Virus record (IMG/VR): IMGVR_UViG_3300021964_000436
Coordinates: 1-26,424 of that record
Direction: 5' to 3' (one strand)
DNA length: 26,424 nucleotides
From: a virus
Part shown: piece by piece, positions 6,001 through 26,424 of the stretch
Layout of the letters: each line of letters starts with the position of its first letter
Position numbering within the stretch: position 1 is the first letter of the stretch
Translations under genes and position numbers: made by a program
The notes under the pieces: model-generated
Databases searched by the model: none
What the model saw: only the letters and a program-made list of their open reading frames with translations
Told to the model about the DNA's origin: nothing

Positions 6001-6690
6001 TTGCCCTAATATAACTTTATTGTATTCTACTTGGTATACGTTTTGACCAGAACCAGTCACATCTATATCAAAACCACTGATAGTACTAGCATAATAGCAT
6101 ATACTATTTACGCCAGACGATTTGCTTACAAAAGGATCAATGAAAACATTTTGATCAATATCTATTTGACCACCTGTTACATTCGGAGGCGGAGAATTTA
6201 AAAAATATACACCAGTGTATTTTCTACCATAATAATCATTTGAAACTACCTGAAACCTAAACCTCCTATAATCTTCAGAACCGACATTCCTAAAAGACTC
6301 TATAATATCTAAAGTAGAAATTTCAAATGAAGTATCCTTGTATCCACTGGCTAAATTTTGAATCAACATTCCAGTCTCATCATGCAAACTAATATCAAAC
6401 CCATTAAAAACCTGTAACAAATTGATATTTTCTTCAGTAAACACGGAGCCATCGTAAGGGTTTACTAAATTCCAGTTTATAATAGGCCTAGACTGAAAAA
6501 ATTCACCGCTAGCGACATTAACGCCTAAAGGTATACCGCTCCCCCCAGAGAACACAGCAAGAGACCCATCAAAAGCAAACGGCTCTTGATTAGGATAATC
6601 AGTTATTTCATTTTTTATTGAAAACCCAGATACTTTTAGTGCTTCACCAAAATCCTGAGGTGTTTGAGTTATATATTTTGATTTAGGCAT
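1..6690 (-). CDS. giant repeat-containing tail fibre protein, partial (3' end outside window)
   Basis: The frame starting at ATG 6690 stays open for 2230 codons to base 1, so the C-terminus is missing. Residues 1 to about 600 are beta-rich and FN3-like, similar to what often follows a J-type tip protein. From about residue 685 the chain carries ten motifs of the form G-N-[VL]-G-[IL]-G-T-x-x-P followed by a short K/L-rich strand, at nt about 4630, 4385, 4145, 3895, 1725, 1455, 875, 630, 345 and 110. This motif is typical of phage fibres and often precedes an S74-type C-terminal chaperone. Residues 976-1601 are 37 tandem 17-residue repeats (separate entry). The gene follows J directly (TAA-T-ATG junction), with only a weak GAAAG ahead of the start. 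It is inferred to be the distal or side fibre that binds the receptor. Translation of the whole stretch shows no frameshift or stop. The fibre call is strong; the receptor is unknown. Confidence 0.85.
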   Translation of the reverse strand, partial: MPKSKYITQTPQDFGEALKVSGFSIKNEITDYPNQEPFAFDGSLAVFSGGSGIPLGVNVASGEFFQSRPIINWNLVNPYDGSVFTEENINLLQVFNGFDISLHDETGMLIQNLASGYKDTSFEISTLDIIESFRNVGSEDYRRFRFQVVSNDYYGRKYTGVYFLNSPPPNVTGGQIDIDQNVFIDPFVSKSSGVNSICYYASTISGFDIDVTGSGQNVYQVEYNKVILGQNEGFQREISPLDRRSGFYYAAVAKDNFGTGSAYYFPSSVAPYTIDPLKYNVISSGFRGKIVAERDNFNKQIKTKFVGTTQREFAAEKTRYEVYVEESGIARKNSTLYIGTPNINGFKAIVQGTGGQQLNITSLTSGNPFYAQDFYYSGSNSEPVFSPYDTTGIQWADHTLIVDESKLVENGFSQNTSSIRDIAIPSGYTYSSEIYIDLNFNENLNQFLLYPTGGLHPSGFYTGTYADNPTGGVVTYRKDPTSNYSVSGYAPNIDSQTGVLVASNLSGFILSEYEPRFIYDIDESSSYSFRIRLNMEEDGKSLFSDPLYVSSGAIVSAISGAGYSTGLFNGDTNSGLAFYNADLDILNISDNLFSSGSGFGINVSTPEHHFHVSGDAQISGYLYDSQNTTGEAGYVLASEEGGPQWKQIEDVLSGVGGSGATNYVARWADEDTLTTGVLYDNNTNVGIGTASPAKKLHVTGDTLLESTNSGTASSLSSSATTYGLKVRGAASSGSLNFSSSNARYTLQALSTGNSAISLTLNPFGGNVGIGTVSPDTRLQIVGSTSGDSVLKVDGTNGTLFEVVDDLSDSLMSVNDAAGLPVLEVFADNHIVAGRYNQNDFYLDTNGNLGLGTSSPITKLNIKGDQSANGQLYIEPTNDSEYAGLVIKTTRGADRAYAIFAGGTGTDDLNFRFRDASAGADRVVIDSSGNVGIGTVIPAAKLDVVGDACINSVRVGRGRCNVSNNTAVGLNALNYATGACNTGLGYQALINTTTGCRNTAVGFNSLLSNSTGYVNTAVGTQSMLCNTIGFANAALGNSTLFSNISGSCNTAIGFQSLYYNESGCLNVAVGYNSLLSNTTGSCNTAVGVSSLNNNTTGTNNTAQGYQSLCYNTTGVNNTAQGSRSLFSNTTGGQNTAHGYRSLYSNTTGSYNVAVGMHSLYLNTTGGQNTAVGYSSLNFNTTGSRNTTQGYQSLENNTTGSCNTAQGFWSLNSNTTGTNNTASGYVSLACNTTGCNNTAVGFCSQYTVVTADNNTSFGSSTLKNNTGCSNTAVGAFSLCNNTTGACNIAVGWKSLLNNTSACHNLAIGTCALFHTTTGIRNIGIGHAALKWNITGSHNTGVGFGALVFNTGTGNTAHGACTLYLNTTGADNTAVGLQSLFQNTTGSYNTALGSYSLFTNTTGCYNTSSGSFSLRYNTIGCCNTAFGYSSLFCNTEGSQNTALGMCSLRSNTTGHQNTATGFCSLYTNTTGVYNTAQGSRSLFCNTTGEGNTAVGTESLLSNTTGCYNTAVGYRALRYNTTGRNTAIGTDALYCTTTGIGNVAVGDNSMVCNTTGSHNTASGNCSLLCNTTGCCNTAHGYNSLFCNTTGSYNTAIGRGAGCNITTGSCNIFIGAFTEGGSVSDTNAIAIGYNVNTCGSNTINIGNTSNTKTIFECGYVGIGTTDPTSLLHIDTAANSAANFKLGADRTAANAAIGQIIGVWDGTTVAKIALKTGDDTTNKDDGEIAFEVAAAGSTAEAMRIDSSGNVGIGTISPTGGKLQVAGKVRIDAGSGNDALNLNAYDLLKWDNANHIHFGGYKSGQWAVLKFYSSATERLNIGSDVNVQGATDLNICGTSRRLSFTSGTGTIRTTTSNNLILQTNSTSAITIYPTQQIQFNAYGSGTFTGTATQRLAVDSSGNVIEIPIGSGAVDGSGAANKVTYWTDTDTISYNNNFHWDNTNGNLGIGTSVPSSTLHVSDSTSGSSVLKVDGTSGTIFEVTDDLSSSLMSVNTIAGLPVFEVFADNHIVAGRYNQNDFYLDTNGNLGLGTNAPSKKLEVVNSTAAQILAKGWGPDSAGNDGGAIQLGEESAFHGLFSYDNATSILYIDNAYNSSSGDIRFRTKTSGTAITAVTIEGDGNVGIGAVNPVNNLTVAGDIGYTGYLGQGSIYGNTANASYARVQLYDPATGYTTFNNISYGYYFQTANSTKVTILNNGNVGIGTTAPAQQLEITKNFRLPNSTATTGIIYKDTSRFIHN
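619..807 (-). repeat. 63-residue fibre module, copy 2
   Basis: This is the second copy of the 63-residue module, residues 1962-2024 of the fibre, C-terminal to the 17-residue array. It differs from copy 1 at seven positions. The two copies are about 3.5 kb apart in direct orientation, so homologous recombination between them would delete the whole cysteine-rich array in frame. Confidence 0.9.
1888..3765 (-). repeat. 37 tandem 51-bp (17-residue) coding repeats, cysteine-rich beta-roll-like array
   Basis: The consensus unit is T-G-x-x-N-T-A-x-G-x-x-S-L-x-x-N-T. There are 34 units of 17 residues and three of 16 (units 17, 22 and 33, counting from 3765 downward). This gives exactly 1878 nt, matching the span. 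Degenerate units flank it at about 3766-3816 and 1840-1887. The fixed N, T, A, G, S and L with variable pairs between them resemble the YadA-head/beta-roll repeats of trimeric adhesins and the N-T-A-x-G repeats common in marine phage fibres. About 33 cysteines fall in these 626 residues, while the roughly 940 residues before them have very few. Cysteine recurs at unit positions 3/4, 11 and 15; units 33-36 all have it at position 15. Fold and trimer state are inferred. Confidence 0.92.
4135..4323 (-). repeat. 63-residue fibre module, copy 1
   Basis: Residues 790-852 of the fibre, from L-K-V-D-G-T to G-N-L-G-L-G-T, match copy 2 (619-807) at 56 of 63 positions by hand alignment. The stretch around F-A-D-N-H-I-V-A-G-R-Y-N-Q-N-D is identical in protein and nearly identical in DNA, so the duplication is recent or kept similar by recombination. 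It lies N-terminal to the 17-residue array. Confidence 0.9.
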
Positions 6691-12245: not shown

Positions 12246-15203
12246 TTAAGAGTTTAAAGATACATATCCAGCAAAACCATTTAAATCTAATAGATTATTT
12301 TTCTGACCAATTGTGCTCGCTGTTATGCTACTATTCACTATTGTTTTTACTACTCTATTTTTTTCAGAAAGAAAAGACGATACGCTTTCTCTTTCATTTA
12401 TGTTTAACCTTCTATTAAAAATAATTATATCTGAGATAGCAAAAGCCATCTTTTGAGTAGATGAGTTGTAAGCGCCTAAAACAGGGTTATCTATAAAAGA
12501 TATATTTTTATTTCTAAAAATTGAGTCATGTAAAAGCAGTTTATTGTAATAAGTTTTGTATGATATGACACCCTTATTTATTAAACTGGCCGACACGTTA
12601 TAAACAAAAGATGTACTAGGTTCCTGTAAAGCATTATTTTGATAATTAGTATCTGTGAAAGATACAACCTCTTCATCAATACCTAAATTTTCAACAATAA
12701 AACCCCTAGAATCGTAAAAAAAAGATCGAAACTGCTTTTGATCACCTATATCGCTCCATGTATGAAAAATGTAGCTTTCTTTTTTATGTCCATTCCTGTT
12801 GAATTGGTTACTGTTACTAGTAGCAGGATTAGCAGGCAACATATTGTAAAAAATATCAAAACCTACAATATCATTGCCTAAAAGAAGGCTGTTACTATTG
12901 TCAATTATATTGTTGAATTGAGCCGACATAGAGCTTCCTGTCCATAGTACATATTTATTACCATTGAATTTATCCATAGAAGAATTTTTAACTACTGGTG
13001 GAGTAGATCCCGGTGTTATCGTTGGTTGAGTTATATCTAAGTTATATAAATTAGAATTCCAAGTGCCAAGATTTCCTGCTGTAAGGTCCTGAGCATCCCA
13101 GTAAGCAACGAATCCTTTTATTTTGTCTATATTTTTACCTTTTTTAATGAAAAATAAATTAGATCTAAAATTAGAAACAGTATAATTAGGGTTATCAGAT
13201 GCATCTATAGCATAACCAGCTTTGCCCCCTTCAAAACCTTTTGTATCATTGTTTCGACCTTGCAAATTTAGACTTCTAATATAACTATGCTCTAATTCTA
13301 TAGTTGGAGCCCTTTCGCCATCTTCACCAAATGCTCCCCCATTACCACCCTCACCCATTCTTTTATTGAATGATAAAGAATTTCCTAAGCCATAACCTGC
13401 TATATTTCCCCTTGCTGATGGGTTAGGTTTGTCAGTTAATCCTAGTAATTTCCCCCCCAATGAAAAAAAGCCTTGTCCTCCTCCACCTGCGCCCCCAAAA
13501 GTTTTACCTTTCACACTATTAGCCGAATAGTAGATCGCCTCATTAGGCTCATAAGCTTGATCAAACCGATACTCTAGATTCGCAGAATAAATGATGCCAT
13601 CAAAATTATCATCAATTAAGTACATGCTGTGGTTAGCGCCCTGCATACCAACATAATAATACTGCATATTTTTTATAGCATCAAACCAAAATGTAGAGTC
13701 TCCGCCTCCGCCCCCTCCGCCTCCACCATATATTTTAGCGTCTTGATGCGCAATAATTTTAAATAAAGAAGAATTATTATTGGTTATTTTGATTGCCGCA
13801 GTACCATTTGTTCCCTTTGTACCCTCATGCTCTATTTTAAATCTTATTTGTGGTACCTCCATCCCTTCATTGCTAGTTATATCTTTGTGCAACTTAAAAT
13901 CTTCTATAATTATTTCTCCAGAATCTCCTCCGTTACCCCCTCTTCCAGCAACTATAGAATTAGAATTTAAATAAAGGTGAGTTTTTATTTCGCTTTGGCC
14001 CGCATCTTCTATTCTGTCTCCTGTTTCTATACCTGCATTTGTTATATTATTAGATCCCACGACATAACCCTCGGGTAATATAAAATGTACACCTGTAAAA
14101 TTATAATTGTTATTAGACGGAGTAAAATAGCTACGATCAAGACCTCTAGAATCTAACTCTTGTTCGAATTTATTATAAAGATTTATGTTTGACTCGTTAT
14201 TTTCAAAATATATCCCTAAAGCAGACCTAGAACCAACTGGAGATTTAATTATAGAGCTAGGATCTCCCCCTACAGGCAGAGTGCTTGAACCAGAAACTAA
14301 GCCAGTCAAGATATCTATATTAGTAATATCTTGCTGTATATCTGCGACAGGGTACCCGTATACCCAATCTGTTTGCGATACCAATGCAGGGCTAGAAGTA
14401 TCAAATTGATCATAGTGTTCTCCCCTAATTCTATAATAAAAATCTTTATTGAAATCTGACGTTTTATGGGCGTATGTTTTTGTTTCGTTTAGCCCTGTAG
14501 GTGTACCATAATAAAATCCATTGATAGTATTTCCAGCATCAATAAAGGTTTTTTCTTTGCGCTCAAATTCTATGGTTTGTAAATCACTCCAAGAATTAGT
14601 GTTTTCTTCAGCGACTTGTATTTTGTATTTTTCAAAATAATAGCCTGCAGAAGGATGCTGCCAATGAAGGCTGTTTACAGTTTGACCTTTGTCATCGTAT
14701 TGGCCGGTTAACACAAGAAAGCCGCTAGGATGAGAAGGCACGAATTCAACGCTAGCAGGTTGCGCTGTTGGGCCCGTGGCGACAACGTATCCAGCGGCTA
14801 ACCCTGTCAAATAATTTCGTATAACCCCTACAGGTTGCGGCCCACTGTAATATGTATCATCTTTAAACCCATCGGCATCAGAAGTAAAACCTAAATCTAT
14901 AGTTCCTATTATAGCCCCTGTATTATAATTCTGTTTAGCTGCGTAAAAATCAAACTCAATGAAACTCGTTGAACCTGCAGGAATACTCACTGGCTCATTG
15001 ACCCCAGATAAAAATTCAAAAAACCCCTCGTTTCTAGGGTAAGATACGTCCTCAACACCCATTGAAACGCCATAGTTTCCACTATTTGTTATATAAAAAC
15101 CTGTTCGTATAGCAAAGCCAGTTTGCGCAACAAAAGTCATACCGGTGTTACCTATATACGAATTGCCTTCAGCCCTATTTGTTACTTTTGTTGGTAAGCT
15201 CAT
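12246..15203 (-). CDS. tail-tip adhesin-like protein with FN3-like, glycine-rich and LamG/ConA-like regions
   Basis: The protein has 985 residues. The first 170 residues are beta-rich and unrecognised. Residues about 175-285 look like an FN3 domain. Residues about 415-630 hold glycine-rich runs (near 419, a G9 run at 493-501, G-G-A-G-G-G-G near 570 and G-E-G-G-N-G-G near 615) that could pack as a polyglycine-II sandwich like some phage adhesins. Residues about 697-955 resemble a LamG/ConA-like lectin: an A-Y-W-D-A-Q-D-L opening, K-F-N-G-N-K-Y-V, and a closing I-I-I-F-N-R-R-L followed by E-R-E-S-V-S-S-F-L-S. Lectin plus FN3 suggests glycan binding at the tip. The gene overlaps the previous one by 1 nt (TAATG) and sits between the M-like and L-like genes, which are adjacent in lambda. 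Function is inferred from domains only. Confidence 0.72.
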   Translation of the reverse strand: MSLPTKVTNRAEGNSYIGNTGMTFVAQTGFAIRTGFYITNSGNYGVSMGVEDVSYPRNEGFFEFLSGVNEPVSIPAGSTSFIEFDFYAAKQNYNTGAIIGTIDLGFTSDADGFKDDTYYSGPQPVGVIRNYLTGLAAGYVVATGPTAQPASVEFVPSHPSGFLVLTGQYDDKGQTVNSLHWQHPSAGYYFEKYKIQVAEENTNSWSDLQTIEFERKEKTFIDAGNTINGFYYGTPTGLNETKTYAHKTSDFNKDFYYRIRGEHYDQFDTSSPALVSQTDWVYGYPVADIQQDITNIDILTGLVSGSSTLPVGGDPSSIIKSPVGSRSALGIYFENNESNINLYNKFEQELDSRGLDRSYFTPSNNNYNFTGVHFILPEGYVVGSNNITNAGIETGDRIEDAGQSEIKTHLYLNSNSIVAGRGGNGGDSGEIIIEDFKLHKDITSNEGMEVPQIRFKIEHEGTKGTNGTAAIKITNNNSSLFKIIAHQDAKIYGGGGGGGGGDSTFWFDAIKNMQYYYVGMQGANHSMYLIDDNFDGIIYSANLEYRFDQAYEPNEAIYYSANSVKGKTFGGAGGGGQGFFSLGGKLLGLTDKPNPSARGNIAGYGLGNSLSFNKRMGEGGNGGAFGEDGERAPTIELEHSYIRSLNLQGRNNDTKGFEGGKAGYAIDASDNPNYTVSNFRSNLFFIKKGKNIDKIKGFVAYWDAQDLTAGNLGTWNSNLYNLDITQPTITPGSTPPVVKNSSMDKFNGNKYVLWTGSSMSAQFNNIIDNSNSLLLGNDIVGFDIFYNMLPANPATSNSNQFNRNGHKKESYIFHTWSDIGDQKQFRSFFYDSRGFIVENLGIDEEVVSFTDTNYQNNALQEPSTSFVYNVSASLINKGVISYKTYYNKLLLHDSIFRNKNISFIDNPVLGAYNSSTQKMAFAISDIIIFNRRLNINERESVSSFLSEKNRVVKTIVNSSITASTIGQKNNLLDLNGFAGYVSLNS

Positions 15204-16393
15204 TATGTTAATGGTAAATATGGGTCTATAGTAATTAAATTTAAAAACTCGACCTTAACAGATAAATAGTTTATAGGTTGCTCCAAAAATAAAACTGTTA
15301 TAGAATTATTATTTTTATAATTTATAGAATGTGCCCACTCTGGACACACAAAAACTTTTTGCTCATCATATGGTGCTGGGGGAGTGAATAGAAACTGATC
15401 TTTACCTCTATGTTTTTCTAAAAAATGAACTATAGCTTTAGCTTCTGTGTCGGATCTACCCTTTAGAGTAAAATTTAACTCCAATAAACTTTTATTTATC
15501 CCGTCATCTACTCTTATAAAGTATCCGTTTGAAAAATTTTGTTTATAAAACCTTGGAGACTCTTCAAAAACAACACCTTTGTTGACAGGAAAATAAAAAA
15601 CATCTTTAGTCCATTTTGACGAACTCCCAACAGGCCCGTTGGATGGCGTAGAACTTGTTGGTTCCGTACCTGAGTAATAGTACCAACCGCTAGTGTACTT
15701 GCTAAAAGATGAGCCACTAGCATAAATTATATTATCAGGATAGTATTCTTTGCCTTGCTCAAAAAATCCTTCAGTATTTTTAAATGGTATATAAAAGTTC
15801 TGCCAATCAGTTACAGATTCAGATTCGTTATAAAAAGATGTGGATATATTATTTACATTCGGGTATTCTAAATCATTATCAAATTGTTCAATATAAAATT
15901 CATGCTCCCTATCGTAAGGAGGAAAAGGTGTCCAATAAATTCCAGTATAACCGCCGCTAGGCTTATTACCTTTATTAAAAGAGTCCTCAAAAAGATGAAT
16001 AACGGCTTTAGCCTCTTTATCACTTCTTTTATTTAAATCAATATTAAAAGTCGCTGTTAAACTGTTTTCACTCTTGCTCAAGTTGCTAAAATAACCATCG
16101 CCAAACTGCATTCCATAATATTCATTTTTGTATGACACAGTTGATCCATAAGAACTTTCACTAAAAAATTTATTTGTCCAAGGTCCATTTGCGGTTATTG
16201 GTAAATTAGAAGTAGTTGAGGTTGCTGCAGCGCCAGTATAGTAATAATGGCCAGAAGCATTTTGTGCAGCAGGATATTCGACGCTCGAATCAGTATATCC
16301 TGAATAATAAACTATATCGAACTTTGAATAATTATTCCCTAATTCAAAAGCTGAAATATTTGTTATATTTGTTTGTCCAGAATTTAAAATCAT
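15203..16393 (-). CDS. minor tail protein, lambda M-like, internally duplicated
   Basis: The 396-residue protein is two related halves offset by about 191 residues. Each has a tyrosine/tryptophan-rich segment (14-78 and 206-271) with a D-I-V-Y-Y or N-I-I-Y start, Y-Y-Y-x-G and a closing W-T-[NK], like CBM5/12-type modules. An M-like domain follows, starting at G-D-G-Y-F-S-N (98) and N-G-Y-F-I-R (289). Both contain R-S-D-x-E-A-K-A and a P-P-x-P-Y-D or P-P-Y-D turn. The second half keeps the lambda M-like F-x-F-T-P-P ... F-V-C-P-E-W pattern; the first lacks the cysteine. Position and pattern support an M-type tip-assembly protein. The start overlaps the previous stop by 4 nt (ATGA), with a good AAGG seven bases upstream (16401-16404). 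The carbohydrate-binding reading is weaker than the M reading. Confidence 0.75.
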   Translation of the reverse strand: MILNSGQTNITNISAFELGNNYSKFDIVYYSGYTDSSVEYPAAQNASGHYYYTGAAATSTTSNLPITANGPWTNKFFSESSYGSTVSYKNEYYGMQFGDGYFSNLSKSENSLTATFNIDLNKRSDKEAKAVIHLFEDSFNKGNKPSGGYTGIYWTPFPPYDREHEFYIEQFDNDLEYPNVNNISTSFYNESESVTDWQNFYIPFKNTEGFFEQGKEYYPDNIIYASGSSFSKYTSGWYYYSGTEPTSSTPSNGPVGSSSKWTKDVFYFPVNKGVVFEESPRFYKQNFSNGYFIRVDDGINKSLLELNFTLKGRSDTEAKAIVHFLEKHRGKDQFLFTPPAPYDEQKVFVCPEWAHSINYKNNNSITVLFLEQPINYLSVKVEFLNLITIDPYLPLT

Positions 16394-17208
16394 ACAGCAG
16401 CCTTACCTGTTAAATATTCTTGGCTAACAGACAAGTCTCCCTGAACATACCCATCTGACTGTGCTGACAAATTGTTTTTATAAATCTGCCCGGTGCAACC
16501 GAACTCAAATAATGCAGACTCACCATAAACATCGTATATTTTAGCGACAATAGCAGCATTATTTCCTGTATAAGATATTACGTTTCCAAAATCTTCACCA
16601 TTTACTGTCATATCGATTGAAACATTTTCTTTAGTTACCCTGTAAGGTAACTCGTTACCTATAGTAACTACAGGGTTTCTGTCAGCACTAGAAGAATAAC
16701 TAAATGAAAGATTTTTATTTATACCTATATCATCTCCTGCTAAAAATGATCGAAGGCTATGAGCTATCTTTGTGTCTTCAGGGTAGCTCTCTAAAGAGTT
16801 TTTTACATCAAGATCTTGACTCCCATTATTGTTTAATTGCGTTAATTCTCCATATATATCTATTTCAGAATTAAAAATTATAGGTTGAAATGGTTGAACT
16901 TCAAAACTTAAAGATTTAATGTACCCACTAGTAAAATTTACTCCCGCAAAACTACCCATAAAAGGTTCCCCTGTGTGCTCTATTGCAGTTATAGGATTCA
17001 AAAAATCATGAAAATCACCCGTACAATAATGGCTAAAAGATAAAGATCCCTTAACAGGAGAATTAGGAGCATATCTTAAAACAGAGCCATCTACATCAGA
17101 AACAGGCTCTAGTGATGCTTCGACACCTAAACTAGCTGAATTAGCAAAAATTGTTTTTCCCGCTATCTCAACTAATGCATTTTCATATTTTATAAATTTT
17201 GTTGCCAT
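16390..17208 (-). CDS. tail-tube-like structural protein, paralogue 2
   Basis: This 272-residue beta-rich protein has no signal peptide or membrane segment. It shares with the 310-residue protein at 18986-19918 a clear segment: F-T-S-G-Y-[IL]-x-S followed by alternating strands and a closing Y/F-G-[EK]-[LM]. It also shares a preceding S-L/Y-G-V strand and, in the second half, a similar terminal strand pattern ending in an aromatic/Leu-rich tail. Two related halves in one chain resemble duplicated tube proteins such as T5 pb6, but this is inferred. It lies downstream of the tape measure, so it may form a terminal ring or distal-tail element rather than the main tube. The start overlaps the previous stop by 1 nt (TAATG). 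Confidence 0.6.
   Translation of the reverse strand: MATKFIKYENALVEIAGKTIFANSASLGVEASLEPVSDVDGSVLRYAPNSPVKGSLSFSHYCTGDFHDFLNPITAIEHTGEPFMGSFAGVNFTSGYIKSLSFEVQPFQPIIFNSEIDIYGELTQLNNNGSQDLDVKNSLESYPEDTKIAHSLRSFLAGDDIGINKNLSFSYSSSADRNPVVTIGNELPYRVTKENVSIDMTVNGEDFGNVISYTGNNAAIVAKIYDVYGESALFEFGCTGQIYKNNLSAQSDGYVQGDLSVSQEYLTGKAAV
16401..16408 (-). promoter_or_regulatory. Shine-Dalgarno AGGTAAGG for the M-like gene
   Basis: AGGTAAGG lies 7 nt upstream of ATG 16393, inside the end of the preceding tube-like gene. It supports this start together with the 4-nt ATGA overlap. Confidence 0.6.
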
Positions 17209-18986
17209 TATACAATATCAAATTCGTATGTTAAAGTAATAGTAACATATCCGTCGTCTCCTCCCCCAGATCCTTGTACAGCAAAAGCTAACATATCGTT
17301 TTGAGCAAAAGTCAAAGAGTTAGATGTTTCATCGTAATCGCTCACACCCTTAGTTATAACAGATGTCGTAGTTAATGTATCAATACCTATGAAAGAAGTA
17401 TTTTTTAATATAACGCTATCGCTACTTGATAAAGTGCTTGGCGGAGCGGCTGCACCGGGAGTAGTCTTATTAAAGTAGGATATTAAATGCCTGCCATAAG
17501 GCCCCCCTGAAGTATCGGAACCATAAAATTGAGTATTTATTAACTTGCCAGAAAACGGCGCAGGCATATAAATCTGAGACACATATGTGCCCGATATAGG
17601 AATCATAGATGTATTATTAAGATTGTTGCCAAAAGCACCTAAAACAACCTGATTATCGCCATCAAGATAAGCTCTAACAGAGTAACTTTGAACAAATCTA
17701 CCTGTATTGTGCCCAGTGTTAGTTTTATTATGAGTATGGATAGATTTGCCTAAATACTGATCGCCCGAAGTATTTATATAAAATAAATTATTTGTTAATA
17801 CTGAAGTGTCAAAAGTCGCATTTGCTTCACTCAAACTAACATCTTTATTATGTATACCAAAATAAGATCCACTAGAATAAAAAGTACCCGCCAACCAATT
17901 CACCCTAGCCGTGCTGGAAACTGTACGAGAAAAAGATAAAGCAATATTTGTAGGATTCTCTTGATTACTTAAAATAGAAAAAGCCGAACCCGTACTAGCT
18001 GTAGAATTAAATCTGCCTAATAAATAATTGCTAGAAGTTGCTTGAAATTTATAAGTTGTATCTGTACCTCCTATATGAGTATTTGCATTACTTGAAATAT
18101 TAATGTTATTTGCATTAACACTATTTGTTGAACCTAAAAATAGCCCACTTGAACTATTACCAAAATACGCAGAATTAATAGAATTAGATATTTCAATGTA
18201 ACCAGAGTTAGCAGATGTTTGACCTTTTAAAACTGCAGAATTACTAGATACGACATGTAAAGCGTTAGATGGAGAATTAGTGTTGATACCCACTCTTAAA
18301 GAAGATGAGTCTGCAAAAAATAATGGAGAATTTGATCCTTGACCGTAAATCTGAACATCGTTTGTTTGGGGTGCACCACTCGTTCCTCCTCCATATTCAT
18401 TTATTTTTAATGTTCCCCCGCTTAACCTTATTTCATTATTTGCTGCGTCTAAATACAAATCATTTGTACTATTAACTAATATATCATCAGCTACATTTAA
18501 TTTAGCAGAAAAAGCTGTTGTACCGATATCTATATTACCACTAGTATCAATTTCTAAATATTTAGCTGTTGTAAAATCTGCAACACCTTTGCTTACAGAA
18601 AATGTATCTGTTGAAGTTGTGCCAAATGTCCAACCTTGAGCATCATTTTTAGTAACTATGCCTACGCTTGAATTTGCAGAAGCAGCCTGATTATAATTAT
18701 AAACATTGCCCGTTGCTCTACAAACATGCAAGGGATATTGAGGGCCCGTTGATCCTATTCCTACATTTCCTCCGTCAGCTACAAATATAGAGGAGTTCCC
18801 ACCGTCATCCGTTACATTTAGTCCAGAAGAATTTGCTGCTGCAATAGACGACCTTTTAAATAGGTCATCCGTGCATACGTATTTTATTTCTGGATTAGGT
18901 GCGTTTACAGAAATATCTCCTATAAACATAACATCTCCACCAGCTGGCGCACCGTTTAAATTGGAATATGATAATATTTTTCCCAT
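17208..18986 (-). CDS. fibre-like structural protein with G-N-V-G-I-G motifs
   Basis: This is a 592-residue protein rich in Ser, Asn, Thr and Gly. It contains G-N-V-G-I-G-S near residue 70, followed by a P-L-H-V strand, and weaker relatives of the motif (S-G-N-I-D-I-G-T near 150; L-R-V-G-I-N-T near 230), as in the large fibre at the left of the window. The middle is low-complexity Asn/Ser-rich beta sequence. The last 130 residues form a distinct domain, from about A-P-F-S-G-K-L to D-G-Y-V-T-I-T-L-T-Y-E-F, that looks like a beta-sandwich/jelly roll. It has 1-nt overlaps (TAATG) with both neighbours, which are the two tube-like paralogues. This suggests a fibre or decoration anchored on a terminal ring, but nothing in the sequence proves attachment. 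Confidence 0.68.
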   Translation of the reverse strand: MGKILSYSNLNGAPAGGDVMFIGDISVNAPNPEIKYVCTDDLFKRSSIAAANSSGLNVTDDGGNSSIFVADGGNVGIGSTGPQYPLHVCRATGNVYNYNQAASANSSVGIVTKNDAQGWTFGTTSTDTFSVSKGVADFTTAKYLEIDTSGNIDIGTTAFSAKLNVADDILVNSTNDLYLDAANNEIRLSGGTLKINEYGGGTSGAPQTNDVQIYGQGSNSPLFFADSSSLRVGINTNSPSNALHVVSSNSAVLKGQTSANSGYIEISNSINSAYFGNSSSGLFLGSTNSVNANNINISSNANTHIGGTDTTYKFQATSSNYLLGRFNSTASTGSAFSILSNQENPTNIALSFSRTVSSTARVNWLAGTFYSSGSYFGIHNKDVSLSEANATFDTSVLTNNLFYINTSGDQYLGKSIHTHNKTNTGHNTGRFVQSYSVRAYLDGDNQVVLGAFGNNLNNTSMIPISGTYVSQIYMPAPFSGKLINTQFYGSDTSGGPYGRHLISYFNKTTPGAAAPPSTLSSSDSVILKNTSFIGIDTLTTTSVITKGVSDYDETSNSLTFAQNDMLAFAVQGSGGGDDGYVTITLTYEFDIV

Positions 18987-19918
18987 TACTTTAAATAATT
19001 TCTAAACTCTAAATTAACATTTAATAATCCATCTATAGATGTAGTTACACTTTCTGAAATCAAATTTCCAGAAATAGAAGCAAATTCAAACATAGTTTTA
19101 TAACCTGCGTCTTCAATAACATTATTGCTATCGTCTCGAATAAAATCCCCTATAGGACCAGAATGATCTCTTAAGCCATTAATATTGTCTTCAGGGAATT
19201 TGATTACACCATTTATTCTTTTGTATACGCCGCTCCTTGTGTTATCCATTAAATTGGCGGTTTCAAAATCGTCAATTTCTACAGTGAATGAAGATGTAAC
19301 TTCTATTGGAGTTTTTGTTATAATTTGGGTTGGCGCATAATAATTTTCACTTGTTTTTTCTTTTAAATCGTATATGGGGACTCTTTCTACATTAAAAGAT
19401 TGTTCAAATTGAGTAATTCTATTAGTCGTAGACTGTTCTATACTAACTTCTATATCTCTTTGGTTTAAAAAACCAACGATTTGCGTAGGAGTAACCCCAG
19501 AATAATCTAATTCCCCTAGTCTAACGCCACTTCCCATTTTACCGAATACTGAAAAATTTGTTTGTATTGTTGGTACATCTCCTATAGATGCGCTAACAGA
19601 GTAACTTGTTAAGTATCCAGAAGTAAAACCTATAACTTGGCCACTGCTTTCACTTAAATCTGAAGCATATATAATTGATCCATCTATAGAGACATCTCCA
19701 GTTAGGCTCAATATAGGGTCAGAATATATTAAATCTCTAGTCATAGATATTTCCCCCTGCAACGCTTCTGCTAAAACAGGTTGAACATGACCTACGCCAA
19801 GAGCATTCACAGGGGTCCTAGAAACACCATAACTAAAATTCAAGTCTCTTATACCAGAGATACCTGTCCCTCCGATATAAAAAATGTGCTCGTAACTTGG
19901 TGATGCATTATACGCCAT
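18986..19918 (-). CDS. tail-tube-like structural protein, paralogue 1
   Basis: This 310-residue beta-rich protein comes directly after the tape measure gene. The segment G-F-T-S-G-Y-L-T-S-Y-S-V and the strands up to V-F-G-K-M align with the 272-residue protein at 16390-17208. Its second half (from about residue 165) again shows long alternating strands ending in F-R-N-Y-L-K, so the chain is probably two tube-like domains. Candidate roles are a distal tail ring, a tube terminator or a second tube subunit; the sequence does not decide between them. It has the clearest Shine-Dalgarno of the operon (GAGAGG, 6 nt spacing), which fits a need for high expression. No lambda gene between H and M corresponds to it. 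Confidence 0.6.
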   Translation of the reverse strand: MAYNASPSYEHIFYIGGTGISGIRDLNFSYGVSRTPVNALGVGHVQPVLAEALQGEISMTRDLIYSDPILSLTGDVSIDGSIIYASDLSESSGQVIGFTSGYLTSYSVSASIGDVPTIQTNFSVFGKMGSGVRLGELDYSGVTPTQIVGFLNQRDIEVSIEQSTTNRITQFEQSFNVERVPIYDLKEKTSENYYAPTQIITKTPIEVTSSFTVEIDDFETANLMDNTRSGVYKRINGVIKFPEDNINGLRDHSGPIGDFIRDDSNNVIEDAGYKTMFEFASISGNLISESVTTSIDGLLNVNLEFRNYLK

Positions 19919-19920
19919 AA

Positions 19921-22900
19921 TTAACCTCTCTTAGAGTTACCTCCAGATAATATACCTCCGACTCTTTGCTCTTTTTGTATTACTTGAAGTACTGCATTTT
20001 CAATTCTTTTGCCCAATTCTTTACTTTGCTCTATATCTTTTGCTCCACCTTGAGAATTAACACTTGCGTTAGAACCTTGAGTCTGACTACTAGCTCCCAT
20101 ATTAACATTTATACTAACATTATTAGTATTAGATCCCATATTTCCAAGAGAATTTGCAGAAGTTTCTGCAACAGAGCCTCCATTTTGATATTTTGGAATG
20201 TAGCCCCCATTCAAACGGCTCATGAAACCTAAGCCATATTTTTTTACTGCCCTATTGTTCATAACATATTCGCCGCCAGCCATAAATGCCGGAATAGAAT
20301 CTGTATTGCGAGGCCCTCTAGACATGTAACCTCCTCTTTGTACAGTTGAATAACTAAAACCCTTATTAAACTGATCTGCAGTGCGCTGCCCAGTTACATC
20401 TAATGAGATGTTTCCTGTCTTTGTTAACTCTACCGGCTCTTTATTAGAACCAAATCTCGACATGGCTCCACTAACAGCACCCATTGCTAATGTGCTGATT
20501 AATGCATTTACAAATTGTTTATTTTTTGCTTTTTTAGCCGCTTTAGCAGCTAAAGAATCTTCTATAGCTTTTCTTTTTTCCGCTAACTCAGGGTTATCTC
20601 CAGTTAAAAAGTAACCGCTCATGTTATCACTCATAACATCTTTATTCAAAAATACAGATCCACCACTATTAAATCTCGGTGCCATTCCAAAATTTAATTG
20701 ATCTATTGACCTTGGGCCACCTAAAGCTTTAACAGCGTTTCTGTTAAGAACGTATTCTCCATCTTCAAGTAAAGCCGGATTTCTATCTCCGGTTCGACCG
20801 CCAGAAATATACATACCATTTTGAGCCCTGATATATCCTCCTACTTGACCTTGAGGGCCAAAGCTATCGAACATCTTTTTGCCACCAGTCATTATTTGGC
20901 CAACAGCTTGTTGCGTGAATGCGTTTCTTATCTCTGTTAAAAATCCTACAGCAGCATTTCTTAAAGCATCTCCTAAGTCATCAGCTTTATCCATAGCTGT
21001 ATTAAGAGCGTTAACCATATTGTTTTGAAAACTTAATGGTATTTCAGTTCCTAATCTGTATGAAAATGTTTCTGTTTCAGATTGTATTTTGGTAAATGAT
21101 TCTGTCATTCCCAAGCCAGCAGCAGCAAAACCGGGCGTTCTAGTTTTAAGCTCTCTTAAAAATCTTGTATTTTCTTCTTGATAATCCGCATTGAATTTGT
21201 CCATGTCTTCGCCAGCTTTTATTCGAGTAGCTTCTGCATCGGCAGCTGCTTTTTCATTTATTCTTTTTTCTTCTTGTATGTATTTTTGCGCTGCAGCAAA
21301 TCTTGTTTCCTCATCTTTTCCACCTATCATTGCCGGTTCTAACTCTCTAAATACTGTAGCAAGTTCTTGCTTCCTATTTTCTTCAATTCTTTGTAAATCT
21401 ATATCTCTTTGCTGTGCTGTTAAATCTATGTCTGATCTATATCTGCTACGAGCTATACCAAAATTTCTTCTGATTTTTTCTGCTTCAGTTAAACTTGGGT
21501 CCATTTCTAACTGAAACTCCCTAGCTCTCAATGCTCTTTCGCCAGCTCCTTTTGTTGCGCCCATTTGAGCATCTTCAATAATTCTTTGAGACTGCATTCT
21601 GCTTATTTCGTATTGAGCATCTAATTCGGCCTGAGTATTACGAGCTCTAATTTCTTCAATACGTAATGTTTCTTTATTTATAGCTTTTTGATTTTCTTGA
21701 CCTTGAATCATATTGCTATAAGATTGATCCAAGTTACCCATTTCTTCGAAAAAATCTGATTGAGCGGGGGTAAGCTGATCATCAAAAAGTTCTCTCATTT
21801 GATCTTCAAATTCAGATGTATCATCTCCGGCTCTTAATGCTTTTTGGAAATTAGTTAAAATTCTTAGACCTTCCTGACTATGACCCGTTCCACCAAACAA
21901 ATCTGCGTACTTAGCAGCATTATCTTTAAAAAATTGGTCCCTCTCGTTTTCTATTTTATAAGTAAAATCTGCTTCAGTTTTAGATTTTGATCTTTCGAAT
22001 TTTAACATAGGAGCCTTAATCCCATCTAATATGGAATCTTGTAATTTTCTTATAGAATCAGTAAATTCTTTTTCAAGATTTCTCTTTTGCATTGTTAGGC
22101 CAATTTCTTTAACAGATTGTTTAATAGAGTCTTTAATTCTGGTAAAATTTTCAAAAAATGCTTTTTGTTGTGGAGTTAAGTCAGTTTCTGCCTTTATTCT
22201 TTGCGACATATACTGAAAAAGAGATACAATTGTTTTCATAGAAGGCCCCAAAGACGTAAAGAACTCTAAAAGCATGGGCATATGCTCTGTATTTAATTTA
22301 TCTGAAAATTCTATCATTTTTTCAGCAACTGCTTTAGGACCTTGGTCTGCTGCAGCGATGTCTAACTGTTCTTGTTGGAGCAATGTTATATTAGGCAAAT
22401 ATTCTTGAGCCATAAATCCAAACTGAGCAGTTGCCTTTTCTTTTCCCCGAGAACCTAACTTTAGATTAGCTGTCAACCCAAGATCACTCATTACTCGATC
22501 AGTAATTTCACTACGCATATTAGCAACTTGTTCATCGCTATATGATGCGTTCATATTTTGCAATTCTTCTTTAATTCTTATTTGAGCTCTCTCAAGTCTT
22601 CCTCTTGATATTTCTTTTTCAGTTTTTGTACTAGGATCAATAAAAGAAGGAGAATATTCTTCAGCTCTTACTGTTGCTCTTTGAATATCTGAAAATATAG
22701 CTCTTTCTTGTTCGTATCTTTTTAAGTTATCTGCAAGTTGAGCAATGTTCCCTCCGGCACTTAAAAAAGCTTGATCTAAATTTGATCCAGAACTCGTTAA
22801 CTCCTCGAAAGCTTTTGTGGCTCTGTCTTGAGCATCAAAATAATCTTTTTTGCTTAAAGCTGACGCCATATCTTCTTGGGCTTTGATGTAGCGGTCTGCA

Positions 22901-25900
22901 GAAGATGTTACTTCTTCGGTAGTTTTATCATAATTTTCAGCTTTTTCTTTTAACTCTTCTAAAGATAAAGAAGTGTCCATAGCTGCTTTGCCAAGACCTA
23001 TTAAACCCCCAACGAAAGCTCCATAAGGTCCGGCTATCATAGCTCCAGATGCAGCAAAACTGGTGACATTAGAAACAGCTGAACCAGCGAACCTTTGCAT
23101 ATCACTTTGATCCAGACGAGATTTTCCTCCTGTAATACCCTGCTCTGCTAAACCAGCTAACATTGGAGCCCCAAACATCAGACCCATTGAAACTCCGGGT
23201 CTCTGCAGCTGCTTGCTCATTCTTTGCATTAAGGTTTTTTGCTTTTTCGATTCTTTGGCTGTTTGCTGCAAGTTATTGCCTAATACATAGCTTGCCATAT
23301 TACCTTTTGAAGCATTATTAGATAAACTTTTGAATTTAGGTTCTAATTTTTTTATAGTTTCTCCAGTTAAATTCAAACTTTTAGCCGTGTTTCTTAGCAC
23401 GTTTAAAATAGCATCTCCATACAAGCCAGCTTGAGACATTGATTGTGCTATTTTTTCAAATTGAGCTTGCGCTCTCCCAGCTTTACCCTTACCCATTTTT
23501 TTCCCAGAAGTCATAGCACTCACTCCAAAAATTTCACCTTTAGCAAAATTCGGAACATAACCTCTGGCCATATTAGCGCCTTTACCCATTCCTTTGCGCA
23601 TCATTCCGGTCATTTTATAAGGATCGGGGCCTATTTTTCTTGTCGCTAAAATAGAGTCGTATTTTAAGTTTTCCGGCCCTTCTTTTTTAAACATGTTTTG
23701 CACTATAGGTAAGTGCAAATTTTCTGTGATGGCCCTTAAAGGTTTAGATATTGTTTCAGGTTTTATGCCTCCAGCTTTTAACTCCATTACGCCAGTCAGA
23801 GCCCCTCCCTTAGGTAGCCCATTGCTAGTTTTTATAAAATCTACTGCACTATGCTCAGCGTTAAACATTCCAGCCTTATGAGCTGGGAAATACCCCATCT
23901 TTTTAACAATCGGTGCAGCTTTCTTCTCTGCATTGTTTCCGAATTCTCTATTTATATTTCCTCCGCCTTTTTTATCTCCGCCTTTTTTATTCGTTAACCT
24001 AATGTTCAATTTTTCATGTCGATCAAAACCTAATTTGCCTGTATCTAGAGAATTGATAAAAGGGTTTTCAGCTTGAGCTGCTTTAAGGCTTAATGGGTCT
24101 GCTGTCGAAGATAAAGTTCCTCTTCCTGCAGCAAAATTAGGAATATAACCAGAAGATAATGAAACGTAATCTTGGTTAAACTTAGTGAAAAAATCTTGAC
24201 CCTCAAGGTCCGAATATCTTTTTTTAGCTCTCGAACCAAGACTGCTAAAATTGCTTTTTCTAGTAACTCCGCGACGATCTTTTCCTGCGCCGATTATCTC
24301 AATGAACCCACTATCTAAAACAAAAGTGTTTTTAGCGTCATCCCAACCTAATTTAATATTAGATTCTGGCTTTTGATGAAGCTCATTTAACAATTTAGAT
24401 ATAATTTGAGAAGCTGTATGTCCCAAACCGGAATGTGCATCAGCTATAGCATTTTTTCTGTATAAATGGGGGCCAAAACCTTTACTTACAGGCTTTCTGA
24501 TTACAGAGCTAAAATCTATAGGAGAATTGTATGACGGATTAACGCCTATAGCATTACCAACATCTTTTTCAAACTGTCTGCCAACTTTTTTGTTTTTAGA
24601 CACTAAGCCTTTGCTTGCTATAGGTACAGCCCCATTAGGCATACCATACTGAGAAATCATTTGCTGATTAAATATAGCGCTTCCTCCAGAACCCCCATAA
24701 TTGGGAACCATAACTTCGCTACTATTAGCGACAACAGGACCAACATTTCCCCCACCAAAAGCAAAATTAGGAATAACAACAGGATAAGCTCCACTTCCTG
24801 CTCCCCCTACCCCTCTATTAATCGCGCTTTGCTCTGCATTAATGCTTGGGGTATAACCTCCGGCTTTATTTTTTATTTCTGAAGCGGTGCTACCCTTAAC
24901 GCCTGACGCAGTAATGAAAGATCCACCACTAACAATTGCTCCCCCTAATGAAGTAGACAAGCGATATTGTGCTTGATATTGTTCAGTAATAGCTCTTGAT
25001 TTTGCTAAAACTAGTTCCAATTGCCTTGACTGATTACCTTCTGCTGAAACAATTTGTTTTGCTAAATCTACATCTGAACGCAACAAGTTATTAATGAACT
25101 CTTCTGTTTGGGCTCTTTTTTGAGCTTGAGTAGTTATATTAAGCAAAGTTGGTACAGCTTGAGCTAAAAAAGTAAACGATTGTTTAGCGACTTTTAATAT
25201 GATCTGCAGAGCACCTATCAATACAGGACCTTGTAAAACATTACTTAAACCACTAACAAACCCTTGTGCAAAAAATGCCCCTGCACCGGTAGAGTCTTTA
25301 TCCAAGGCGCTATTTAAACTTTTTAAGGCAGTCTGCATCGCCCCTACTATACCTTTACCTAAATCAAGAAACGCAGCATCACCTAAATTTTTCTGTAGTT
25401 TTGCAAATTCAGTCGCAGTGTTTTGCAATAAAGCTGACATTGTTTGATTTAATTTCTCATTAGCTTGCGCAGCATTTTCTGTGGCATTAACAGAAACATC
25501 CAAAGCTCTTGAAAATGTGGATTGCTCTTTATTTAAATCTTTTAATATCGCTGAAAGAATATTAGCTTGGAACACGCCTGCCACTTGTTCACGCAAATAA
25601 GCTTGAGTAGAATCAGCTAGTTTATCATATTTTCCCGCAAAATTATCTAGCACTTGAGTCGCCGGTAATATGTTGCCTTGAACATCCCTTACTGTAACAT
25701 TAAATCTTTCCAAAGCTTCCAATGTCGATTCACGTTGCAAGCGTGTGAAAATAGTTTTTAATGCGTTACCAATAACAGCTCCACCTCTACCAGTAGTTTG
25801 CTGAACAGCAGTAATCAAAGCATTAAGCTCATTGAAATCAACTTTGGCATCAACAGCTGCAGAACCAACTCGACTTAAGCCTTCAACCAAATCTCTAGCC

Positions 25901-26424
25901 GCAACAGCGAACTTTGTTTCAACTGCGACAAATTTATCAACAGCAGATGTCGTATCAAGATCTGTAAATGCATTAACCGTAGCAGTCAAAAGGTCAACAG
26001 ACTTTTTAGCATTCATTCCCGTTAAACGAACGAGCGTTAACGCATCAGAAGTTCTTTTTAAAACCTCTTCTGTTTTTAAACCTTGACGAGAAAATTCTAG
26101 AGCAGCAGAAGACGCAGCCTGAAACGTTGAAGCTGTTTTTTGTGCTGTGTCAAATAATTTATTACTAAACTTATCTAAATTGCCGCCCGAAAGATTTAAA
26201 ATACGATTTATATCAGCGAAAGCAGCTTCGACCTCAATAGATACATTTACTAAATCTTTTAAACTTTTAACGACTGTAGCTAAAACTGCAGTTGAGGCAC
26301 CGAAAGCAATAACACGCGCATTTGCTGCTTCCATCGCAGATTCGAACATGTTAACTTGGCCAGTGATTTTACCAAGTGGCCGAGAGAAAGATTTTTCATC
26401 AATAGCAAACTTCAGTTTAGTTTT
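19921..26424 (-). CDS. tape measure protein, TP901-type, partial (5' end outside window)
   Basis: The frame is open to the right edge, giving at least 2167 residues. The internal ATG at 26349 is not the true start, because the 25 codons before it (including F-A-I-D-E-K-S-F-S-R-P-L) continue the same helical protein. Numbering from that ATG: residues about 40-240 are the TP901-type core; 527-936 hold two cassettes bounded by P-N-F-A motifs; 1050-1123 contain hydrophobic Gly/Ala-rich segments; about 1130-1780 are charged and helical, probably coiled coil; about 1855-1880 and 2015-2040 carry two copies of a G-E-Y-V-[LM]-N-x-x-A-V motif. The protein sets tail length and is ejected through the tube with the DNA. 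By the lambda ratio of roughly 1.5 angstrom per residue the tail would be around 300 nm, less any globular cassettes. The closing segment is Gly/Asn/Ser-rich. Confidence 0.95.
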   Translation of the reverse strand, partial: KTKLKFAIDEKSFSRPLGKITGQVNMFESAMEAANARVIAFGASTAVLATVVKSLKDLVNVSIEVEAAFADINRILNLSGGNLDKFSNKLFDTAQKTASTFQAASSAALEFSRQGLKTEEVLKRTSDALTLVRLTGMNAKKSVDLLTATVNAFTDLDTTSAVDKFVAVETKFAVAARDLVEGLSRVGSAAVDAKVDFNELNALITAVQQTTGRGGAVIGNALKTIFTRLQRESTLEALERFNVTVRDVQGNILPATQVLDNFAGKYDKLADSTQAYLREQVAGVFQANILSAILKDLNKEQSTFSRALDVSVNATENAAQANEKLNQTMSALLQNTATEFAKLQKNLGDAAFLDLGKGIVGAMQTALKSLNSALDKDSTGAGAFFAQGFVSGLSNVLQGPVLIGALQIILKVAKQSFTFLAQAVPTLLNITTQAQKRAQTEEFINNLLRSDVDLAKQIVSAEGNQSRQLELVLAKSRAITEQYQAQYRLSTSLGGAIVSGGSFITASGVKGSTASEIKNKAGGYTPSINAEQSAINRGVGGAGSGAYPVVIPNFAFGGGNVGPVVANSSEVMVPNYGGSGGSAIFNQQMISQYGMPNGAVPIASKGLVSKNKKVGRQFEKDVGNAIGVNPSYNSPIDFSSVIRKPVSKGFGPHLYRKNAIADAHSGLGHTASQIISKLLNELHQKPESNIKLGWDDAKNTFVLDSGFIEIIGAGKDRRGVTRKSNFSSLGSRAKKRYSDLEGQDFFTKFNQDYVSLSSGYIPNFAAGRGTLSSTADPLSLKAAQAENPFINSLDTGKLGFDRHEKLNIRLTNKKGGDKKGGGNINREFGNNAEKKAAPIVKKMGYFPAHKAGMFNAEHSAVDFIKTSNGLPKGGALTGVMELKAGGIKPETISKPLRAITENLHLPIVQNMFKKEGPENLKYDSILATRKIGPDPYKMTGMMRKGMGKGANMARGYVPNFAKGEIFGVSAMTSGKKMGKGKAGRAQAQFEKIAQSMSQAGLYGDAILNVLRNTAKSLNLTGETIKKLEPKFKSLSNNASKGNMASYVLGNNLQQTAKESKKQKTLMQRMSKQLQRPGVSMGLMFGAPMLAGLAEQGITGGKSRLDQSDMQRFAGSAVSNVTSFAASGAMIAGPYGAFVGGLIGLGKAAMDTSLSLEELKEKAENYDKTTEEVTSSADRYIKAQEDMASALSKKDYFDAQDRATKAFEELTSSGSNLDQAFLSAGGNIAQLADNLKRYEQERAIFSDIQRATVRAEEYSPSFIDPSTKTEKEISRGRLERAQIRIKEELQNMNASYSDEQVANMRSEITDRVMSDLGLTANLKLGSRGKEKATAQFGFMAQEYLPNITLLQQEQLDIAAADQGPKAVAEKMIEFSDKLNTEHMPMLLEFFTSLGPSMKTIVSLFQYMSQRIKAETDLTPQQKAFFENFTRIKDSIKQSVKEIGLTMQKRNLEKEFTDSIRKLQDSILDGIKAPMLKFERSKSKTEADFTYKIENERDQFFKDNAAKYADLFGGTGHSQEGLRILTNFQKALRAGDDTSEFEDQMRELFDDQLTPAQSDFFEEMGNLDQSYSNMIQGQENQKAINKETLRIEEIRARNTQAELDAQYEISRMQSQRIIEDAQMGATKGAGERALRAREFQLEMDPSLTEAEKIRRNFGIARSRYRSDIDLTAQQRDIDLQRIEENRKQELATVFRELEPAMIGGKDEETRFAAAQKYIQEEKRINEKAAADAEATRIKAGEDMDKFNADYQEENTRFLRELKTRTPGFAAAGLGMTESFTKIQSETETFSYRLGTEIPLSFQNNMVNALNTAMDKADDLGDALRNAAVGFLTEIRNAFTQQAVGQIMTGGKKMFDSFGPQGQVGGYIRAQNGMYISGGRTGDRNPALLEDGEYVLNRNAVKALGGPRSIDQLNFGMAPRFNSGGSVFLNKDVMSDNMSGYFLTGDNPELAEKRKAIEDSLAAKAAKKAKNKQFVNALISTLAMGAVSGAMSRFGSNKEPVELTKTGNISLDVTGQRTADQFNKGFSYSTVQRGGYMSRGPRNTDSIPAFMAGGEYVMNNRAVKKYGLGFMSRLNGGYIPKYQNGGSVAETSANSLGNMGSNTNNVSINVNMGASSQTQGSNASVNSQGGAKDIEQSKELGKRIENAVLQVIQKEQRVGGILSGGNSKRG
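19925..19930 (-). promoter_or_regulatory. Shine-Dalgarno GAGAGG for the first tube-like gene
   Basis: GAGAGG ends 6 nt before ATG 19918 and overlaps the last codons of the tape measure gene. It is the best ribosome binding site in the window; most other starts have a weak one or none and probably rely on coupling to the preceding stop. Confidence 0.75.
23542..23553 (-). other. P-N-F-A motif 3 in tape measure
   Basis: Residues 933-936, in the context R-G-Y-V-P-N-F-A-K-G, 196 residues after motif 2. It closes the nuclease-like cassette; the following region returns to a helical tape-measure character. Confidence 0.8.
23650..23967 (-). other. PD-(D/E)XK nuclease-like domain inside the tape measure
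   Basis: Covers residues about 795-900 of the tape measure (numbered from ATG 26349). A helix with E802 and E808 (R-E-F-G-N-N-A-E-K-K-A) is followed by a K-K-M-G-Y turn, then V-D837-F-I, and 18 residues later E856-L-K858-A-G-G. This G-x-x-A-E / D / E-x-K layout and spacing match the PD-(D/E)XK fold seen in YraN-like and resolvase-like nucleases. All expected catalytic residues are present. It lies in the cassette between P-N-F-A motifs 2 and 3. Nuclease activity is inferred, not shown. Confidence 0.6.
24130..24141 (-). other. P-N-F-A motif 2 in tape measure
   Basis: Residues 737-740, in the context S-G-Y-I-P-N-F-A-A-G, 210 residues after motif 1. It separates cassette 1 from cassette 2. Confidence 0.8.
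24142..24759 (-). other. tape measure cassette 1 between P-N-F-A motifs 1 and 2
   Basis: Covers residues 531-736. It contains a helix G-R-Q-F-E-K-D-V-G followed by P-I-D612-F, resembling the first half of the PD-(D/E)XK pattern in cassette 2. The next candidate acidic motif (I-E684-I-I-G-A-G-K) is 72 residues away, so a canonical active site cannot be drawn. It may be a degenerate or divergent nuclease-like domain, or something else. Confidence 0.35.
24760..24771 (-). other. P-N-F-A motif 1 in tape measure
   Basis: Residues 527-530, in the context V-V-I-P-N-F-A-F-G-G; a related V-P-N-Y-G-G follows about 20 residues later. It opens the region holding the two cassettes. Confidence 0.8.

Follow-up and report, generated by a model that had tools for sequence, protein, structure and literature searches.

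A predicted PD-(D/E)XK nuclease-fold cassette within the tape measure protein of an uncultivated siphovirus

Tape measure proteins are usually viewed as rulers of tail length and conduits for DNA, and cell-wall hydrolases are the extra function known for them. The protein fills the tail tube and is expelled as the genome enters. To our knowledge, the enzymatic tape measures known so far degrade peptidoglycan. An enzymatic motif within a siphovirus tape measure has been described in mycobacteriophage TM4 (motif 3; PMC1796659). Polyvalent phage proteins combine several unrelated enzyme domains in one polypeptide and are thought to enter with the DNA, an account that makes no mention of tape measures (PMC5512222). 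Tape-measure-related effectors of the Sle1 type are found in contractile injection systems (PMC13277306). A search of open-access papers found none that describes a tape measure with a nuclease domain.

The domain described here, residues 796-918 of a tape measure protein, is like TM4 motif 3 an enzyme-like domain inside a siphovirus tape measure, but its predicted fold is that of a nuclease, it lies between PNFA motifs and it is exchanged as a cassette. Several unrelated enzyme domains are a feature shared with the polyvalent proteins, whereas in the present case the tape measure itself is the carrier. The Sle1-type effectors likewise join a tape-measure-like carrier to variable functional domains; in that case, however, the functional domain is C-terminal and belongs to a bacterial nanomachine, while here it is an internal cassette of a phage tail module. 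With the PD-(D/E)XK superfamily (LHK and lambda exonucleases, Hjc/Hje, Cas4-like and restriction enzymes) the domain is predicted to share the order of helices and strands and an E...D...(D/E)xK site. It differs from these free enzymes in being embedded in a tape measure, in having no detectable sequence relation to them and in adding an invariant R-x-x-x-E-N motif. The reading that we favour, with a probability of roughly 0.55, is that this cassette would be a metal-dependent nuclease delivered at DNA entry.

The window, by which the whole stretch of DNA analysed is meant, is an entire viral record of 26,424 bases and represents a genome fragment. The tape measure gene occupies 19921-26424 on the minus strand, as do all features of the protein given below, and its 5′ end is cut off by the end of the contig. 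In profile searches the N-terminal part of the protein matched TIGR01760 (E 7e-29) and PF10145 (E 2.5e-24), and several PHROGs also match this part. The downstream genes match the lambda-type minor tail proteins M and L, a JAB-domain K-like protein, I and J, and the locus is therefore a siphovirus tail module, so that the protein has both the domain and the gene position of a siphovirus tape measure. The preliminary description was right in placing the named residues in a tape measure ORF. The ATG at 26349, taken there as the start, is internal: the reading frame is still open at the end of the contig, and, judging by relatives L003-L005, the true start is 56 residues further upstream. Residue numbers throughout are counted from this internal ATG. 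Pfam and PHROG searches gave no match for four tail-module genes beside the tape measure (12246-15203, 16390-17208, 17208-18986 and 18986-19918). The contig start truncates another protein, encoded at 1-6690 and at least 2,230 amino acids long, which has PHROG matches to tail spike, tail fibre and virion structural proteins.

The nuclease-like domain had been proposed on the order and spacing of E802/E808, D837 and E856-x-K858. All five residues are present at these positions. Their spacing by itself is near chance and not significant in shuffles: an E-(24 to 34)-D-(14 to 24)-(D/E)xK pattern has seven matches in the whole protein against 5.3 expected, and 11.6% of shuffles of the 150-residue segment around the domain contain E...D...(D/E)xK at such spacing. 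The spacing motif alone was consequently rejected as evidence, and sequence alone would be no justification for a nuclease claim. What takes the domain beyond chance is that homologues keep the site residues, together with the predicted fold, and it is on these that the proposal as a whole now stands. The extent of the domain was revised from 23650-23967 to a core of about residues 796-918 (23596-23964, cassette C2), which is supported by homologues, predicted structure, structural neighbours and selection.

A scan of viral contigs recovered two near-identical relatives and contig L005, at 75%, which also has a second, diverged copy of the domain in the neighbouring slot. Further members of the subfamily are found in L129 and L130 (two copies each), L065, L006 and L185/L190. 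Thirteen columns are invariant in nine copies that are 27-73% identical to the window: G804, E808, K816, D837, E856, K858, G860, K869, R872, E876, N877, F887 and L901. These include the acid of the first helix, E808 (23926-23928), D837 of the second core strand (23839-23841) and the (D/E)xK motif E856-L-K858 of the third core strand (23776-23784), the strands being those of the predicted structure; downstream of the site lies the motif R872-x-x-x-E876-N877 (23719-23736). Every homologue found retains D837, E856 and K858, and the acid in the second predicted strand and the (D/E)xK in the third that characterize the superfamily are thus both present and conserved. E802 varies among homologues and was rejected as a catalytic residue, so the nuclease interpretation stands for the conserved site and predicted fold and falls for this one residue. 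For the domain, dN/dS comes to about 0.33 in the comparison with L005 (0.174/0.534) and to about 0.25 with L129 (0.495/1.99); judged by these ratios, the domain is evolving under purifying selection. A search of 50,697 deposited phages, a collection that may omit records very near the window, gave no relative of any cassette or of the linker, and no relative of C2 was found in the bacterial and archaeal genomes searched. Profile searches of Pfam, NCBIfam, PHROG and PDB sequences, the first of which had been proposed in the preliminary description, gave no match of the domain to any known nuclease family. A missing sequence-profile match is common for remote members of the PD-(D/E)XK superfamily.

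Structure prediction from nine sequences gave a model of middling confidence (pLDDT 69.7, pTM 0.64), and only the best of five models scored so well, the other four reaching 50-56. An earlier model from four sequences (pLDDT 49) had only four structural matches, at Z 2-3, and was rejected, its fold matches being meaningless. In the better model, helix 2-22 is followed by a short strand near 26, strands 43-46 and 56-64, helices 74-81 and 86-94, and strand 101-107 (model numbering). The alpha-beta-beta-beta-alpha-beta order, whose absence from a confident prediction was to have counted against the nuclease proposal, is therefore found, at this middling confidence and with structural neighbours from the PD-(D/E)XK superfamily. 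The model puts E808 on the first helix and E856 and K858 on the third strand, with D837 at the margin of the second. Foldseek with this model returned no significant match. VIA-align was run on the Foldseek candidates, and the 50 solved structures among the matches listed have Z scores of 3.9-6.2, a range where chance resemblance occurs, over about 73-108 aligned residues. The best match listed is the LHK exonuclease (Z 6.2, 93 residues, 3.1 A); others listed are a hantavirus cap-snatching endonuclease, BsaXI, Hjc/Hje, AddAB, Cas4-like enzymes, lambda exonuclease, HincII and I-Ssp6803I. Essentially all 50 entries are, judging by their titles, PD-(D/E)XK or closely similar endonuclease folds. 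Despite the modest Z of 4-6, this uniformity is hard to explain otherwise, and C2 very probably has the PD-(D/E)XK fold as modelled. Holliday-resolvase folds, suggested in the preliminary description for comparison, are among the neighbours and are not singled out by them.

A second family occupies the same slot in related tape measures. A DNA pattern for G-Y-(I/V)-P-N-F-A found at least 120 stretches, and nearly all those listed lie in large tape-measure-like frames with several such motifs and varied segments between them. Most of these loci carry a G-x-x-(F/Y)-E ... F-D ... (D/E)xK domain at the position of C2, and D and K are invariant in 45 aligned copies. Since this family model was built from motif loci, environmental loci were rescanned with the upstream linker only, giving a set that overlaps in part with the contigs of the first. 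All 53 linker-selected environmental loci with a readable cassette region carry either the second family or the subfamily of the window. In this set the G, the D, the K and a D or E two before the K are each present in 49/49 second-family copies, whereas the acid of the first helix is E in 48 of them, D in the remaining one. Of these 49 copies, 41 have fewer than half of their 8-mers in common with the training sequences. By motif and slot, the second family is assigned as putatively nuclease-like. Profile-profile comparison showed no homology between it and the subfamily of the window, and a joint alignment of both was set aside for folding because the (D/E)xK column was misplaced. L185 and L190 have both families, in neighbouring slots. 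The same type of tape measure, with a cassette from one of these two groups, was found through the linker in contig L137, from an uncultured Verrucomicrobiales genome bin; this is the sole indication of a host that was found, and the binning may be wrong.

Cassette C1 of the window (residues 581-733; 24151-24609) resembles the second family with His in place of Lys (D612, D637-A-H639) and ranks 6th-7th against 2,000 shuffles, which is suggestive only of a possible degenerate nuclease-like member. If inactive copies occur, as C1 appears to indicate, C2 itself might be a catalytically idle fold, serving as a tail spacer or a DNA-binding element that, for example, holds or guides the phage's own DNA, to which the tape measure is close during entry. 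Against such a role, E, D, (D/E) and K are kept exactly in both sequence families (9 and 49 copies) while most other positions vary, and we consider it unlikely.

The cassettes are bounded by short motifs. The first, VVIPNFAF (residues 524-531; 24757-24780), begins a conserved linker; the second, GYIPNFA (residues 734-740; 24130-24150), follows C1, and the third is GYVPNFA (residues 930-936; 23542-23562). When the window is compared with L003 and L004, DNA identity is 98-100% over the whole part that runs from the N terminus to the end of the third motif, C1 and C2 included, and directly past this motif it drops to about 40%. Against L005 the N-terminal part is 95% identical at the DNA level, but where the window has C1, from the linker to the second motif, L005 has an unrelated cassette throughout. 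These sharp breaks mark the PNFA motifs as exchange junctions; the repeat motifs that the preliminary description took as domain boundaries are indeed boundaries, and the third is a recombination junction. Replacement at sharp boundaries inside otherwise near-identical genes would also be produced by a selfish cassette of the homing type, which cuts tape measure genes lacking it and is copied in by repair, the PNFA-flanked slot being its homing site and virion delivery incidental. PD-(D/E)XK homing enzymes exist, and I-Ssp6803I is one of the listed neighbours. However, the slot was filled in all 53 linker-selected loci and no empty targets were seen, other cassettes are not nucleases, and the second family has been conserved vertically over a long time; homing is thus a rather improbable explanation.

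Under the delivered-nuclease reading that we favour, residues 796-918 would fold as a PD-(D/E)XK domain and belong to a series of exchangeable cassettes that occupy the middle of the tape measure. The domain would probably be stretched or unfolded in the tail tube and, after ejection, would refold at the inner membrane or in the cytoplasm. We infer that E808, D837 and E856 would bind a divalent metal, with K858 as the catalytic lysine, and that the refolded domain would cleave nucleic acid either where the genome enters or in the cytoplasm. Its most likely targets would be DNA of the host, of plasmids or of rival phages, or else a nucleic-acid component of host defence, struck once at the start of infection; the few copies per particle would fit an early single strike over bulk degradation. 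The presence of a staphylococcal nuclease and an acetyltransferase among the other cassettes is what one would expect of a payload. Against delivery, folded domains may not fit the tail tube. During genome injection, the lambda tape measure gets to the inner-membrane entry complex (PMC13190303). In TM4, when the hydrolase motif is removed from the tape measure, the tail becomes shorter by roughly as much as the residues of the motif predict (PMC1796659), so that an enzyme domain counts toward tail length; it is presumably in extended form inside the tube and refolds once it leaves. For Sle1, a similar idea has been put forward (PMC13277306). The nuclease might instead act on the phage's own genome, trimming or resolving its ends after entry, as the tape measure enters with the leading end of the DNA and Holliday-resolvase folds are among the structural neighbours; a swapped, polymorphic cassette suits a variable target better than a constant task of this kind, and we regard this as quite improbable. 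A chance motif in an unrelated fold, for which near-chance spacing and weak Foldseek scores could be cited, is highly improbable given a site invariant in divergent homologues, the predicted core and the uniform nuclease-fold neighbours.

If nearly every member of this large environmental family has a nuclease-fold domain with an intact site, the tape measure would be a carrier of enzymes delivered at the very beginning of infection, and the cargo of the slot would evolve through exchange at short motifs. The ruler of tail length may double as an enzyme delivery arm, one that in environmental relatives nearly always carries a nuclease-like domain. More tentatively, and with some doubt, this may extend to a broad uncultivated siphovirus group, whose tape measure would be a modular delivery rod with a near-obligatory nuclease and exchangeable enzyme cassettes bounded by G-Y-(I/V)-P-N-F-A, all injected at DNA entry and reshuffled at the motifs.

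Across the family, one cassette matches staphylococcal nuclease (PF00565, E 1.9e-8), one an acetyltransferase, and there are P-loop matches. The cassettes between PNFA motifs are very diverse, for example in L076, L009, L038, L036, L077 and L107, and some contain, by eye only, putative ADP-ribosyltransferase-, kinase- or metallopeptidase-like segments. The linker motif (SSEVMVPNYGGSGGSAIFN; window 24601-24801) resembles GEYVLN...AVKKYG repeats near the C terminus of the tape measure (19921-20900), and the PNFA motifs may thus derive from a wider tape measure repeat.
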